DNA of 56,942 nucleotides from contig JANXRY010000067.1 of the NCBI GenBank assembly GCA_025356635.1, positions 1-56,942 on the forward strand, written 5' to 3'. Below are positions 7,633 through 48,312 of the stretch, one piece after another. The DNA is from Gammaproteobacteria bacterium. Lineage in GTDB: Bacteria > Pseudomonadota > Gammaproteobacteria > Xanthomonadales > Xanthomonadaceae. A program made the translations under genes and the position numbers. The notes under the pieces were generated by a model, which saw only the letters and a list, made by a program, of their open reading frames with translations, was not told the DNA's origin and did not search any database. The first letter of the stretch is position 1. The number at the start of each line of letters is the position of its first letter.

Positions 7633-9093
7633 ATGGTGGTCGATGCAATGGTGAAAGAGACCTATAACGACACGGTGGTCCGGCATTTCGCCGTGATGAC
7701 CGTGGTCTGGGGCATCGTCGGCATGCTGGTCGGCTGCCTGATCGCCGCGCAGCTGTACTGGCCAGCGCTGAATTTCGACATCCCCTGGCTGAGTTTCGGC
7801 CGATTGCGGCCGCTGCACACCAATGCGGTGGTCTTTGCCTTCGGCGGCTGCGCCCTGATGGGCACCAGCCTGTACGTCGTGCAACGCACCTGCCACGTCC
7901 GGCTGATCTCCGATGCCCTGGCCAGTTTCGTGTTCTGGGGCTGGCAACTGGTCATCGTGCTGGCGGCAATCACCCTGCCGATGGGCCTGACCGAAGGCAA
8001 GGAGTACGCCGAGCTGATCTGGCCGATCGACGTGCTGATCACCCTGGTCTGGGTCGCCTACGGCATCGTCTTCTTCGGCACCATCGCCAAGCGCCGGGTC
8101 CGCCACATCTATGTTGCGAACTGGTTCTACGGCTCGTTCATCATCGCCGTCGCCCTGTTGCATATCGTCAATTCGCTGGCGATCCCGACTTCGCTCACGC
8201 ACAGCTACCCGATCTATTCCGGCGCCGTCGATGCCATGGTGCAGTGGTGGTACGGCCACAACGCGGTCGGCTTTTTCCTCACCGCCGGCTTCCTCGGGAT
8301 GATGTACTACTTCGTGCCGCGCCAGGCCAATCGGCCGGTGTATTCCTATCGGCTGTCGATCGTGCATTTCTGGGCGCTGATCGCCATCTACATGTGGGCC
8401 GGGCCGCACCACCTGCAATACACCGCGATTCCCGATTGGGCGCAATCGCTGGGCATGGTGTTCTCGCTGATCCTGCTGGCACCGAGCTGGGGCGGCGCGA
8501 TCAATGGCGTGATGACGCTTTCCGGCGCCTGGTACAAGTTGCGCACCGATCCGATCCTGAAGTTCATGATCGTCTCGATCTCGTTCTACATGATGAGCAC
8601 GTTCGAAGGGCCGATGATGTCGATCAAGACCGTCAACGCCCTGAGCCACTACAGCGACTGGACCATCGGCCATGTGCATTCCGGCGCGCTCGGCTGGGTG
8701 GCGATGATTTCGATCGGCGCAATCTACATGCTGATCCCGCGCACCTTGGGGCTGAAGGAAATGGCCTCGATGAAGCTCATCGACGTCCACTTCTGGATCC
8801 ACACGATCGGCGTGGTGTTGTACGCGGCTTCGATGTGGGTCTCGGGCATCGGGCAGGGTCTGATGAGCCGCGCCACCAACCCCGACGGCACACTGACCTA
8901 TGCCTGGGTCGAGATCGTCAAGTTCACCTATCCCTACTACCTGGTGCGCCTGTCCGGCGGCCTGCTCTGCCTGACCGGCATGATCATCATGGCGGTGAAC
9001 ATGGTGCGTACGTTCCAGCTGGCGAAAGGCCCGCGCACGGTGCCGGTGGCGCCCGCCCCCGCCGACAACGCGATCGCCGGAGGAACGCCATGA
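7633..9093 (+). CDS. ccoN: cbb3-type cytochrome c oxidase subunit I
   Basis: This is the catalytic haem-copper subunit of the high-affinity cbb3 oxidase, reducing O2 at low oxygen tension. There are 486 residues from the ATG at 7633 (a GTG one codon earlier is possible), with a GGGG ribosome-binding site seven bases upstream. Twelve hydrophobic helices are apparent. Histidine motifs fit the family: [15 protein letters not shown] (haem ligand), [16 protein letters not shown] (CuB and cross-linked Tyr region), [10 protein letters not shown], and [15 protein letters not shown] (haem b/b3 ligands). It is the first gene of ccoNOQP and overlaps ccoO by four bases (ATGA). Confidence 0.97.
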
Positions 9094-27535: not shown

Positions 27536-27563
27536 TTGACCGGGCCGGGCTTATCCATATATT
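27536..27563 (+). promoter_or_regulatory. Promoter of the Rrf2 regulator gene
   Basis: TTGACC (27536-27541) and TATATT (27558-27563) are 16 bases apart. Transcription would begin near 27570, only about five bases before the ATG at 27575, and no Shine-Dalgarno sequence is visible. The message is probably leaderless. Confidence 0.6.
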
Positions 27564-27572
27564 GTGTATATG
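27556..27572 (+). promoter_or_regulatory. Rrf2 operator candidate: dyad CATATA-N5-TATATG
   Basis: CATATATTGTGTATATG is a perfect inverted repeat of 6-bp arms around a 5-base centre. It overlaps the -10 element and the transcript start of the Rrf2 gene, as expected of an autorepressor site. A related dyad lies at 28145-28161 before sbp; the two agree at 12 of 17 positions. Confidence 0.6.
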
Positions 27573-27574
27573 AA

Positions 27575-28048
27575 ATGCTTACCAAGAAAGCCAAATACGC
27601 ATTGCGAGCCCTGAGTGCGCTGGCCCGGAACGAAGCCGGGTACACGCAGGCGCGCGACATTGCCCAGGATGCACAAGTCCCGGAAAAATTCCTTGAGACC
27701 ATCCTGGTTGAACTACGCAATGCCTGCCTGGTCGAGAGCAAGCGCGGCGCCCGCGGCGGCCATCGCCTGGCAAGGCCCGCCGAGCAGATCAACATTGGCG
27801 AAATCATCCGCACCATCGATGGCCCCCTCGCACCGATTCCTTGTGCCAGCCACACGCGTTACCGCCCCTGCGACGACTGCGTCGATCCGGCCCGATGCGC
27901 CCTGCGACTGCTGATGGTGGACGTACGAACCGCCATGTCCGATGTCGTCGATACCCGCACCCTGCGTGATTTGTCCGAAGCCGCCGGCCCGCCGCGACGG
28001 CGCACCAAGCAAGCCAAGCCGTCCAAACCGTCCAGCGAAGCTGCCTGA
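27575..28048 (+). CDS. Rrf2-family transcriptional regulator, probably of sulfur assimilation
   Basis: The 157-residue protein has the Rrf2 winged helix (MLTKKAKYALRALSALAR, then VPEKFLETILVELRNACLV). The wing KRGARGGHRLARP follows, and a cysteine-rich loop has C90, C99, C102 and C108 (CASHTRYRPCDDCVDPARC), which could bind an Fe-S cluster or sense thiols. A Lys/Pro/Ser-rich tail ends it. It directly precedes a sulfate transport operon, and both promoters carry the same kind of dyad. This recalls CymR, the Rrf2 repressor of cysteine genes in Bacillus. The target assignment is inferred. The ATG at 27575 matches the family N-terminus. Confidence 0.88.
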   Translation: MLTKKAKYALRALSALARNEAGYTQARDIAQDAQVPEKFLETILVELRNACLVESKRGARGGHRLARPAEQINIGEIIRTIDGPLAPIPCASHTRYRPCDDCVDPARCALRLLMVDVRTAMSDVVDTRTLRDLSEAAGPPRRRTKQAKPSKPSSEAA

Positions 28049-28126
28049 GCAAGCCCCGCCCGGCCGATAGCGGCCAGCTTCCCCCTCTCACGAGCCGATC
28101 GACAAGTGCCGATATCAACCGGGCAC

Positions 28127-28152
28127 TTGACAGCTGCGCTAAATCATATAAG
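28127..28152 (+). promoter_or_regulatory. Promoter of the sulfate transport operon
   Basis: A consensus TTGACA (28127-28132) is followed by TATAAG (28147-28152). The 14-base spacing is short, which suggests a weak or activator/repressor-tuned promoter. Transcription would begin near 28159, leaving a leader of about 58 bases to the TTG start. Confidence 0.5.
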
Positions 28153-28161
28153 TTCTATGTG
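28145..28161 (+). promoter_or_regulatory. Second Rrf2-type dyad, in front of sbp
   Basis: CATATAAGTTCTATGTG has arms CATATA and TATGTG (five of six positions complementary) around a 5-base centre. It has the same geometry and the same offset to the -10 element as the dyad in the Rrf2 promoter at 27556-27572. Confidence 0.55.
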
Positions 28162-28216
28162 AATTAGGCGCAGCCAGACCAGGCATCGCCTGGCAACGCA
28201 TTTCAGGGGAACTGCA

Positions 28217-29227
28217 TTGAATTGCTTCGGGCCTGCGCTTCTCATTGGCATTGCCGTTTGCGCCGCCGGCCTGGCGGCGGCCAAAGACGTCACCCTGCTC
28301 AATGCTTCCTACGACCCGACCCGCGAGTTCTACCGGGCCGTGAATGCTGAATTCGCTGCCCAGTGGAAGACCAAGACCGGCGAAAACCTGACCATCCAGT
28401 CCTCGTACGGCGGTTCCGGCAAGCAGGCCCGCGCCGTGATCGACGGCCTGGAAGCCGACGTGGTGACGCTTGCGCTGGCCGCCGATATCGATTCCATCGC
28501 CGAAAAAGGCCACCTGCTGCCCGCCAACTGGCAGGGCCGCCTGCCGAACAACAGCGCGCCCTACCGTTCGACCATTGTGTTCCTGGTGCGCAAGGGCAAT
28601 CCCAAGGGCATCCACGATTGGGGCGACCTAGTGCGCCCCGGCGTTGCTGTGATCACGCCTAATCCGAAAACCTCCGGCGGCGCGCGCTGGAACTATCTCG
28701 CCGCCTGGGTCTACGCCGCCAAACAGAGCAAGGGCGATCTGGCAGCTACGAAAAATTTCATGGCTCGGCTATACCGCAATGTCCCAGTGCTCGATACCGG
28801 TGCGCGCGGCTCGACCACCACGTTCGTCAATCGTGGCATCGGCGATGTGTTGATCACCTGGGAAAACGAAGCCTATCTGGCGCTGTCGGAACCCGAAGGC
28901 AAGAATTTCGAATTGGTCATTCCCAGCATCAGCATCCTGGCCGAACCACCGGTGGCAGTGGTGGACAAGAACGTGGATCGCCACGGCACGCGCAAGGTCG
29001 CCGAGGCGTACCTGCAGTTCCTCTACAGTGCGCGCGGCCAACAACTGGCGGTGCAGAACCATTTCCGCCCGTCCCGCCCCGACCTGGTATCAGCGGCAGA
29101 CCTGGCCATTTTCCGCCCGGTCAGCGTCGTGACCATAGACAACGCTTTCGGCGGTTGGAAAAAAGCGCAGGCCACGCACTTTGCTGATGGCGCCTTGTTC
29201 GATCAGATTTTCAAACCAGGGTCATGA
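28217..29227 (+). CDS. sbp: Sulfate ABC transporter, periplasmic substrate-binding protein
   Basis: This protein captures sulfate (or thiosulfate) in the periplasm for the CysTWA permease. The 336-residue product has a signal peptide ([16 protein letters not shown]). The family start [17 protein letters not shown] and the anion-binding stretches [20 protein letters not shown] and [16 protein letters not shown] follow. A TTG at 28217 is taken as start because AGGGGA lies eight bases before it and no other start fits the signal peptide. It overlaps cysT by four bases. Confidence 0.94.
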
Positions 29228-30072
29228 TGGCTTCCGCACTCGCACGCCGGTGGCGCCAGGCCGGGCCCTTGCCGGGATTTGGCCTGACCCTGGGCGTTAC
29301 CCTGACGTGGCTCAGCCTGATCGTGTTGATCCCGCTGATTGCGTTGTTGGTGAAAGCGGCGGGACTGGGCGCGCACGGTTGGTGGGCGATCGCCAGCGAT
29401 GCGCGCGTTCTGGCAGCGCTTAAACTGAGTTTCGGCAGCGCCTTGATCGCAGCGTTGATCGATGCGCTGATCGGCACACTGATCGCCTGGGTTCTGGTGC
29501 GCTATCGCTTCCCGGGCCGCACCTTGTTCGATGCCGTCATCGATCTGCCTTTCGCTTTGCCGACGGCGGTGGCCGGCATCGCGTTGACCGCGATTTACGC
29601 CGGCAACGGGTGGCTCGGCCATGGCCTCGAAGCCGCCGGGATCAAGATTGCTTACGCGCCGGCCGGGATCATCGTCGCCTTGCTGTTCGTCGGTTTGCCA
29701 TTCGCCGTGCGCACCTTGCAGCCGGTGCTGGAGAGTCTGCACCACGAACACGAGGAAGCCGCGGCGTCGCTGGGTGCGGACCGTTTCACCACGCTTTACA
29801 AAGTCGTGTTGCCGCAAATTCTTCCCGCAATGCTGACCGGCTTTTCGCTCGCGTTCGCGCGCGGTGTCGGCGAATACGGCTCGGTGATATTCATCGCCGG
29901 AAACCTGCCCTATGTTTCCGAAATCGCCCCGCTGCTGATCGTCATCCGCCTGGAGGAATTCGACTACCACGGCGCCACCGTGATCGCGACACTGATGCTC
30001 GGCGCATCGTTCCTGATCCTGTTCCTGGTCAATACGCTGCAACGGAGGCTCGCCCGTGGCCAACCCGCCTGA
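29224..30072 (+). CDS. cysT: Sulfate ABC transporter permease CysT
   Basis: One of two inner-membrane permeases of the sulfate transporter. The 282-residue protein has about six helices. The [20 protein letters not shown] start and the cytoplasmic EAA loop ([20 protein letters not shown]) are typical of CysT. Start is at ATGATG (29224); the second ATG is equally possible. It overlaps sbp and, by 17 bases, cysW. Confidence 0.95.
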
Positions 30073-30916
30073 GCGCAGCCGCGGCTTGACCGAGCCCGCA
30101 TGGCTGCGTCGCCTGCTGATCGGCGCGGCGCTCGGGCTGATCGCGCTGGTGATTTTGCTACCGCTGGCAGCAGTCCTGATCGAGGCCTCGGCCGCGGGCT
30201 GGCATGCGTATGCCAGCGCCATCCTGGAACCCGACACACTCGCCGCCATTCGGCTCACGCTACTGGTGGCCTTGCTGTGCGTGCCATCGAATATCATCTT
30301 CGGCATCGCCGCTGCGTGGGCGATCACCAAGTTTCGTTTTCCCGGCAAGAACCTGCTGATCACGCTGATCGATCTGCCGTTCTCGGTCTCGCCGGTGGTC
30401 GCGGGTTTGGTATTCGTGCTGCTGTTCGGCGCCCAGGGTTGGTTTGGCGATTGGTTGCGCGCGCACGACCTCAAGCTGATCTTCGCCACTCCCGGTATCG
30501 TGCTTGCGACTTTCTTCGTGACCTTCCCGTTCGTCGCGCGTGAGCTCATCCCCTTGATGCAACAGCAAGGTGCCGACCAGGAAGAAGCGGCGGCTTCGCT
30601 CGGTGCCGGCGGTTGGCGGATCTTCTGGCGGGTGACTTTCCCTAACGTGCGCTGGGCTCTGCTGTATGGCGTGCTTTTGTGCAATGCGCGGGCGATGGGC
30701 GAATTCGGCGCGGTCTCGGTGGTATCCGGCCACATCCGCGGTCTGACCACCACGCTGCCCTTGCAGGTCGAGATCCTCTACAACGAGTTCAACGCCGCCG
30801 GCGCGTTCGCAGTCGCCTCGCTACTGACTTTGCTGGCGCTGCTGACGCTTGGCCTCAAGCTGTGGCTGGAACACCGCCATGGCGAAAGCCTGGCGCGTGG
30901 CGCCCGCCCCCATTAA
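30056..30916 (+). CDS. cysW: Sulfate ABC transporter permease CysW
   Basis: The second permease of the sulfate transporter has 286 residues and about six helices. It carries the EAA loop [20 protein letters not shown] and the CysW-type NARAMGEFGAVSVVSGHIRG segment. A GTG start at 30056, with GGAGG shortly upstream, lies inside the cysT 3' end. It probably dimerises with CysT. Confidence 0.95.
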   Translation: MANPPERSRGLTEPAWLRRLLIGAALGLIALVILLPLAAVLIEASAAGWHAYASAILEPDTLAAIRLTLLVALLCVPSNIIFGIAAAWAITKFRFPGKNLLITLIDLPFSVSPVVAGLVFVLLFGAQGWFGDWLRAHDLKLIFATPGIVLATFFVTFPFVARELIPLMQQQGADQEEAAASLGAGGWRIFWRVTFPNVRWALLYGVLLCNARAMGEFGAVSVVSGHIRGLTTTLPLQVEILYNEFNAAGAFAVASLLTLLALLTLGLKLWLEHRHGESLARGARPH

Positions 30917-30952: not shown

Positions 30953-32005
30953 ATGGAAATCCTGATCGAAGGCGTCAGCAAACAGTTCGAAGGCTTCGCG
31001 GCGCTGAAGCCGCTCGACCTCGCGATTCCATCGGGGCAACTGGTCGCGTTGCTCGGCCCATCGGGATCGGGCAAGACCACGCTGCTGCGGCTGATCGCCG
31101 GTTTGTTGCCGGTGGATGCAGGCCAGGTGTTGTTTGGTGGACGCGACGCCACGCGGCTCAGCCTGCGCCAACGCAAGGTCGGTTTCGTGTTCCAGCATTA
31201 CGCGCTGTTCCCGCACATGAGCGTATTCGAGAACATCGCCTTCGGCCTGCGCGTGCGCCCACGCGCGCAGCGCCCGAAGGAAGCCGAGATCACGGCGAAA
31301 GTGGATCGACTGCTGTCCCTGGTGCAATTGGCAGCACTACGCGATCGGCTGCCGGCGCAATTATCCGGCGGGCAACGGCAGCGCGTGGCGCTGGCACGGG
31401 CGATGGCGATTGATCCCACCGTGTTGCTGCTCGACGAACCGTTCGGCGCACTCGATGCCAAGGTGCGCTTCGAGCTTCGGCAATGGCTGCGCACTATCCA
31501 CGATGAAACCGGCTTCACCACGATTTTCGTCACCCACGACCAAGAGGAGGCGCTGGATCTTGCCGATCGGGTAGTGGTGATGAACGAAGGCCGGATCGAA
31601 CAGGATGGCAGCCCGGATAGCGTCTACTCCACGCCGGCCTCGGCCTTTGTGTTCGATTTCCTCGGCCGCTCCAACCAGATCTTTGGTGAAGTCAGCGATG
31701 GCGTGTTCCGTGCGCCGGGATTGGCGAATGCCATCGCCGTCAACGACTGCCGGGCGGGACCGGCGTCGCTGTTCACGCGTCCGCACGACATCGCCCTGGC
31801 CAGCATGGGTAGCGGCTTGCGCGCGAAAGTCGCCGCCGTGCACCGGTTGGCCGGGCGGGTCAGCCTGGATGTCACGATCGAAGGGCAGGATCGGTCGCTG
31901 CTGGTGGATGTGCCAGGCCATGGCGTGGCACGCCCGCCAGCACGCGGCGAGCAGGTCGGGCTGGAGCTACGCCAATACCGGATATTTGCGATGCCACCCT
32001 TATAA
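30953..32005 (+). CDS. cysA: Sulfate ABC transporter ATP-binding protein CysA
   Basis: The ATPase subunit that powers sulfate import. The 350-residue protein shows Walker [10 protein letters not shown], signature [14 protein letters not shown], Walker [13 protein letters not shown], the switch [14 protein letters not shown] and a C-terminal TOBE-like regulatory domain. It closes the sbp-cysT-cysW-cysA operon, 36 bases after cysW. Confidence 0.95.
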
Positions 32006-41789: not shown

Positions 41790-41905
41790 TTTGTTTGCTC
41801 CAAACGCCGGACTGGCGCAGGACCCAAGATACGGATCGCTGCTAACCGCAGGCTTAATCCACACCAATTCACTAGGAAGCGTTCAGCGACGCGACAGCTG
41901 GCGGC

Positions 41906-46421: not shown

Positions 46422-46853
46422 ATGCTTCGTGTCACCAAGCTCACCGACTACGCGACCCTGGTACTGACCGCGCTGGCGCGGTCGCCCACGCGAGTGCTCA
46501 GCGCCAACGAATTGGCCGAGCAGGCGCGCCTGGAATTGCCGACCGTCAGCAAGGTGCTCAAGCCGCTGGCCCACGCCGGCCTGGTCGAGAGTTTTCGCGG
46601 CAGCAACGGCGGCTACCGGCTCGCGCGCGATCCGGCCTCGATCAGCGTCATCGAGATCGTCGAGGCGATCGAAGGCCGCGTCGGCGTCACCGAATGCAGC
46701 GGCGACCACAGCCATTGCGAACTCGAGTCGCATTGCAGCGTCCGCGGCAAATGGCGCGACATCAATGCCGTCGTGGCCGACGCCCTGCGCGGCGTGACCT
46801 TGGCCGAGATGCTGCCGCGCAGGTCCATCCCGCTGCAACTGGCCGGGACCTGA
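46422..46853 (+). CDS. SUF system Rrf2-family regulator (Xanthomonas type)
   Basis: An IscR-like regulator of Fe-S cluster assembly. The 143-residue product has the Rrf2 winged helix ([38 protein letters not shown]) and the wing [12 protein letters not shown]. Three cysteines C92, C99 and C105 ([15 protein letters not shown]) match the spacing of the [2Fe-2S] ligands of IscR closely. First gene of the operon Rrf2-sufB-methyltransferase-sufC-sufD-sufS, with sufB starting 24 bases later. Likely represses the operon when clusters are plentiful. Confidence 0.94.

Positions 46854-46876: not shown

Positions 46877-48312
<1,436 letters not shown>

Follow-up and report, generated by a model that had tools for sequence, protein, structure and literature searches.

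The Rrf2-family protein (157 aa) encoded at positions 27575 to 28048 on the forward strand of the 56,942-nucleotide stretch of DNA analysed here, which we refer to as the window, is probably an autoregulated and mainly local repressor of sulfate uptake that binds as a dimer to a 23-bp palindrome and responds to sulfur. Comparison across genomes delineates this predicted operator and ties it both to the regulator and to the sulfate transport genes, and the 23-base site is very probably the switch for sulfate uptake in the genomes that carry the regulator. In Gammaproteobacteria, the control of sulfate uptake is usually attributed to the activator CysB. No description of an Rrf2 regulator of this type was found in the open-access literature that we searched.

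A preliminary description of this DNA had reported a 17-bp dyad shared by the promoters of the regulator gene and of sbp, the gene for a sulfate-binding protein. The two dyads, CATATATTGTGTATATG at 27556-27572 and CATATAAGTTCTATGTG at 28145-28161, were confirmed at these positions with identity at 12 of 17 bases. However, they proved to be the cores of a single longer element, a 23-bp operator of roughly the form WTYCCYAY-N7-RTRGGRAW. Operator 1, ATCCATATATTGTGTATATGAAA (27553..27575, forward strand), contains the first dyad, and operator 2, AATCATATAAGTTCTATGTGAAT (28142..28164, forward strand), which lies before sbp, contains the second; the full operators agree at 15 of 23 positions. With a matrix built from relatives only, operators 1 and 2 ranked first and second of the 56,920 window positions (23.9 and 23.8 bits, versus 15.7 bits for the third-ranked position), and dinucleotide shuffling of each upstream stretch, repeated 5000 times, never reached these scores. 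The loose dyad pattern (up to three mismatches) had 10 matches in the window, with 10.1 expected, as it would if the two dyads resembled each other by chance. However, a chance origin has a negligible probability given the ranks and shuffles obtained with this independent matrix and the conservation in carriers described below, and we rejected it. The third-best match (41857-41879) is located upstream of a minus-strand glycine-zipper (Rick_17kDa_Anti) ORF and beside an OsmC-like ORF; it is borderline and may be a chance resemblance.

A consensus scan predicted a sigma-70-type promoter for the Rrf2 gene (27536..27563, forward strand, 10 of 12 matches), with TTGACC beginning at 27536 and TATATT at 27558-27563 after a spacer of 16 bp. 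Operator 1 covers this -10 element and reaches the first base of the start codon. The Rrf2 ATG (27575) lies two bases past the first dyad with no Shine-Dalgarno sequence between them, and the predicted message is almost leaderless. Many relatives share the spacing of this region (27553-27577), in which the operator runs into the start codon without a Shine-Dalgarno sequence (site from -22), and near-leaderless translation of the regulator may be common among them. Both dyads had been said to overlap -10 elements. This held for the Rrf2 gene, but for sbp the putative -10 TATAAG (28147-28152) is only 14 bp past TTGACA (28127-28132) and was absent from the promoter scan, and the sbp promoter is less sure because of this spacing and the missing scan report. 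The sbp start codon is a TTG at 28217, preceded by AGGGGA.

Since operator 1 lies over the predicted -10, its occupation by a protein should prevent transcription. We propose that a dimer of the regulator would bind the palindrome that spans the -10 and the beginning of the regulator gene, as well as, in the window's genome, the second operator copy before sbp-cysT-cysW-cysA. Under ample reduced sulfur, the regulator would block both promoters, and it would release them under sulfur shortage. The opposite direction of control, in which the protein activates at both sites, would agree with the annotation of E. coli IscR and similar Rrf2 proteins as dual regulators, but we consider it very unlikely, as a protein occupying the stretch from the predicted -10 to the start codon should hinder rather than recruit polymerase.

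The conservation of the operator was examined in a sample of 149 genomes of the family, including the window's own, of which 27 carry an orthologue of the regulator (the window and 26 others). The 26 orthologues are 55-66% identical to the window regulator, and the next tier of matches is at 28-40%. Regions of 9.5-16 kb were taken around each of the relatives' orthologues, and five loci with near-identical upstream regions (L046, L047, L051, L055, and L058) were dropped before motif training, leaving 21 non-redundant upstream regions for the motif search, with the window left out. The matrix was built from the sites of 20 relatives, excluding locus L037, which has no site; the five dropped loci and L037 were still counted among the 27 carriers. 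In 19 of the 21 upstream regions, the palindrome starts 21-37 bases ahead of the start codon; in L048, the best copy starts at -85 and a second one at -34. Conservation of the dyads in related genomes had been named as a check, and it was found: the best site within 1500 bp upstream of rrf2 scored 15.7-29.0 bits in 26 of the 27 carriers, where 20 of these 26 sites served as the training set of the matrix and had leave-one-out scores of 11.5-27.5 bits. Outside an interval between -130 and +10 relative to the rrf2 start, only 3 of 399,173 positions in the 27 carrier regions reached at least 15 bits, and these were the window's sbp site, a site before a porin gene in L049, and a site in L037. With a looser promoter scoring of our own, nine of the 27 carriers, including the window, scored at least 9/12 with the -10 inside the operator, and the others had no clear -35.

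Several observations count against the proposed repressor. L037 shows no site before rrf2 (best score -5.6 bits within 1500 bp upstream); its sbp is preceded by a 9.8-bit site, and a site of 18.4 bits follows rrf2 (oriented position 7878). The closest relative, G153, whose regulator is 68% identical and whose gene order is rrf2-porin-sbp-cysT-cysW-cysA, has an operator of only 14.6 bits at -40, which is weaker support than that from other carriers. The 14-bp spacing of the sbp promoter and the first rank of an IscR in the profile search (see below) were counted likewise. The regulator is patchy within the window's own genus, where four of 27 genomes carry it. As a side observation, the 18.4-bit site of L037 (genome G022) precedes a gene for an NAD_binding_9 FAD protein, and an NAD_binding_9 protein also follows rrf2 in the Mesorhizobium locus L115 (6491-7837).

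The genes downstream of the regulator, all on the forward strand, encode a sulfate transporter: the sulfate-binding protein gene sbp (28217..29227; NF008022, 468.4 bits, cut-off 288), the sulfate permease genes cysT (29224..30072; TIGR02139, 390.8 bits, cut-off 246.1) and cysW (30056..30916; TIGR02140, 398.1 bits, cut-off 329.1), and the sulfate transporter ATPase gene cysA (30953..32005; TIGR00968, 364 bits, cut-off 342.75; for NF008105 it scored 391.9 bits, below the cut-off of 502). All 27 orthologues in the family adjoin sulfate ABC transporter genes, with sbp, cysT, and cysW in 24 loci and cysA alone in three (L034, L035, and L042). CysA is also present in 23 of the 24 sbp-cysT-cysW loci, and in the remaining one (L058) the sequence examined ends near cysW. 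A porin gene match was found between rrf2 and sbp in 19 of the 27 regions, so a single operator ahead of rrf2 could suffice for all genes of the operon. The window has no porin gene at this place and instead has the second operator before sbp. Such a separate sbp operator is unusual, since most carriers have the operator at the regulator's own promoter only.

Genomes without the regulator provided a further comparison. From the 122 family genomes without an orthologue, 39 were chosen by hand, and 17 of these have sbp. None of the 17 sbp loci showed the operator, with the best scores being 7.1 bits upstream of sbp and 8.1 bits anywhere in the loci, and the three genomes of the same genus without rrf2 that were tested also lacked sbp. 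These regulator-free genomes retain weaker Rrf2 paralogues, and many also have CysB. An operator that belongs to the SUF regulator or to CysB, with the adjoining rrf2 being incidental, would be conceivable given that both proteins occur in the family, but sbp loci devoid of the operator despite Rrf2 paralogues and CysB make this highly improbable. The predicted operator thus behaves as the site of this one regulator, to which it is tied by comparison across genomes.

The window regulator belongs to the Rrf2 superfamily, with scores of 121 bits for PF02082 (cut-off 30) and 111.9 bits for TIGR00738 (cut-off 73.3). It fell short of the equivalog cut-offs for CymR (NF047409, 79.8 bits, cut-off 195), IscR (TIGR02010, 62.9 bits, cut-off 207.55), the SUF regulator (TIGR02944, suf_reg_Xantho, 58.9 bits, cut-off 110.65), and RirA (NF008886, 60.2 bits, cut-off 193). 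CymR is nevertheless the top specific family model after the superfamily, and it was matched at E 0.001 or better by all 22 aligned members, among which the score was read against the cut-off for the window protein alone. Structure prediction gave a high-confidence model (mean pLDDT 91, with 83 for residues 81-90 and 87 for residues 91-100). Among solved structures, CymR chains come nearest to it in fold (2y75, TM-score of 0.87 normalised by target length, sequence identity 34%), while a sequence profile search placed IscR of T. potens first (4cic, 89.5 bits) and CymR second (82.5 bits). The regulator had been suggested to be a CymR-like repressor of sulfate uptake, and the conserved operator, the sulfate gene neighbours, and the CymR fold agree with this. 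The predicted fold and the probable function of the four-cysteine regulator are thus similar to those of CymR, yet it is not a CymR by the family cut-off.

Four cysteines had been noted in the protein (C90, C99, C102, and C108), and all four are present; the total is, however, five, with an extra C51 that is unique to the window protein among the 22 aligned. The four are invariant in alignments of 22 and of 30 proteins. Their spacing, CX8CX2CX5C, occurs in all 27 family regulators and in 47 of the best 80 wider relatives, and in the other 33 the last cysteine is preceded by one residue fewer. When the profile is aligned with CymR of B. subtilis (2y75), the four-cysteine stretch falls mostly in a gap. 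Our guess is that the four invariant cysteines form the sensor, most likely by holding an Fe-S cluster that would be occupied according to the sulfur supply.

The sensing mechanism could differ from this guess in two ways. The regulator might work as CymR does, with CysK and O-acetylserine as the signal and with the four cysteines binding zinc or merely steadying the fold. CymR of Bacillus and Staphylococcus represses sulfur acquisition, as proposed here for the window regulator, and has a palindromic operator; in the cited parts of the CymR literature (PMC9338935, PMC3828012), it is cluster-free, acts with CysK, and controls many cysteine genes, whereas mainly one operon was found here. A CymR-like mode of action would fit the closest solved fold and the top specific family model, but the invariance of the four cysteines, the gap over most of their stretch in the alignment to CymR, and the missed CymR cut-off make it rather unlikely.

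Alternatively, the regulator might mainly sense iron or Fe-S status in the manner of IscR or RirA, with sulfate uptake coupled to it as clusters need sulfur. IscR is known to be autoregulated and has three cysteines, spaced unlike CX8CX2CX5C. IscR and the SUF regulator share the superfamily with the window regulator and have their cysteines in the same C-terminal half, whereas the window regulator has four cysteines in the CX8CX2CX5C pattern and adjoins sulfate transport genes rather than isc or suf. RirA, a [4Fe-4S] iron regulator of Alphaproteobacteria, is likewise of the same superfamily; it represses iron uptake, whereas the neighbours of the window regulator are sulfate transport genes. 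The Fe-S sensing of RirA, as presented in the cited part of PMC10510648, is the model that we borrowed for the proposed sensor. Iron or Fe-S sensing as the main function is suggested by the four conserved cysteines, by the resemblance to the IscR and RirA models, and by the T. potens IscR as best profile match among solved structures. However, both the IscR and RirA cut-offs were missed, the 27 orthologues adjoin sulfate transport genes, and the genome has a separate Rrf2 gene (46422-46853) that scored 174 bits, over the SUF Fe-S assembly regulator cut-off of 110.65, so we regard iron sensing as improbable. Behind this second Rrf2 gene, an ORF starts at 46877, the first 174 residues of which have no Pfam match.

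The proposed repressor appears to be mainly local. A pattern search of the window's genome returned the two window sites as the only strong matches, and the next match (17.8 bits, C45:111470) lies within a PALP/CBS-domain (cystathionine beta-synthase-like) ORF. The pattern search thus gave no support for a global regulon in this genome. Two strict patterns were further searched in 22 carriers and gave matches in 8 and 11 of the 22 genomes; sites upstream of rrf2 accounted for 7 of 11 distinct places with one pattern and 8 of 13 with the other. These patterns do not bound the regulon because they miss many true sites. Matches at other places were found in G037 (23.9 bits, far from rrf2; L187 1501-1523, corresponding to G037:C1:1891588-1891610), G014 (18.9 bits; L186 762-784, corresponding to G014:C261:762-784), G116 (18.2 bits), G121 (14.5 and 12.7 bits), and G115 (14.2 and 10.7 bits). 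The first ORF after the distant G037 operator copy, about 450 bp from it, has no Pfam match, and no recognised sulfur gene was found in the surroundings of the G116 site. The G014 operator copy is followed after 96 bp by a gene whose product is similar to a putative binding protein of a selenate ABC transporter (210 bits against a cut-off of 250), and this gene is possibly a further target. We call the regulator mainly local because most strict matches are rrf2 sites, yet the G037 and G014 copies hint at other targets.

The control of sulfate uptake had been expected to differ from the usual CysB control, and this applies to only part of the carriers. CysB is an activator of the LysR type from an unrelated protein family that has the same target genes in other bacteria. 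The E. coli CysB was used as a query against 148 family genomes at E 1e-60 or better, a query that does not separate CysB from its close LysR kin, and matches were found in 97 genomes, including 22 of the 27 regulator carriers. The five carriers with no CysB-like match at this threshold are G128, G037, G075, G022 (32% identity), and the window's genome, where the best match is 30% identical (5.4e-30) and where a 2.5-Mb draft assembly that is 97.4% complete limits the reading of CysB absence. The difference from CysB control may thus apply to the window's genome, whereas most carriers have a CysB-like protein in addition to the regulator. In the cited part of a study on Xanthomonas citri (PMC4501297), CysB, which shares 39% identity with its E. 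coli counterpart, was proposed as a regulator of sulfur genes.

Relatives of the regulator also occur outside the family, including in Alphaproteobacteria. Of the best 80 named loci, 19 contain sbp, cysT, or cysW. A site of at least 15 bits lies within 250 bp upstream in 13 loci, 10 of them belonging to the 19 with sulfate genes. Five of these 13 loci are carriers already counted; the eight additional ones comprise five alphaproteobacterial loci together with L105 (23.3 bits), L109 (24.0 bits), and L112 (27.9 bits), which lie outside the genomes used for matrix training. In L114, an alphaproteobacterial MAG, the genes run rrf2-porin-sbp-cysT, and the site scores 23.3 bits. Variants of the palindrome were seen upstream of rrf2 in L110, L117, L121, and L159 (e.g., alphaproteobacterial arms TTTCTA and TAGAAA), and rhizobial loci carry others near -119, to which this matrix gives low scores.

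Among the matches listed, relatives of the regulator are common in rhizobia and their kin. In Rhizobium johnstonii, an SfnB-like gene (283 bits, below the cut-off of 430.9) lies beside the relative, and the neighbours in Chelatococcus include a monooxygenase of the NtaA/DmoA family, which scored over its cut-off, and an ATPase of the sulfonate type, which scored below. The scanned neighbours in Devosia, Magnetospirillum, and Mesorhizobium are not clearly sulfur genes, and the sulfur link of the rhizobial relatives is suggestive. The tie of the regulator to sulfur is thus strong within the window's family and suggestive outside it.

Tentatively, Rrf2 proteins of this four-cysteine lineage, which occurs in Lysobacteraceae and Alphaproteobacteria and in one outlier each assigned to Gemmataceae and Hymenobacteraceae, might read sulfur through a metal or Fe-S centre of its own, repress sulfur uptake, and have replaced a lost CysB in a few genomes, including this one. 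The proposed regulator would represent a repressor from a family other than that of CysB, with a defined operator, acting on CysB-type target genes, mostly alongside CysB and in a few genomes with no CysB detected. Its operator and invariant cysteines may offer a way into the sulfur sensing of an Rrf2 protein that is not CymR.
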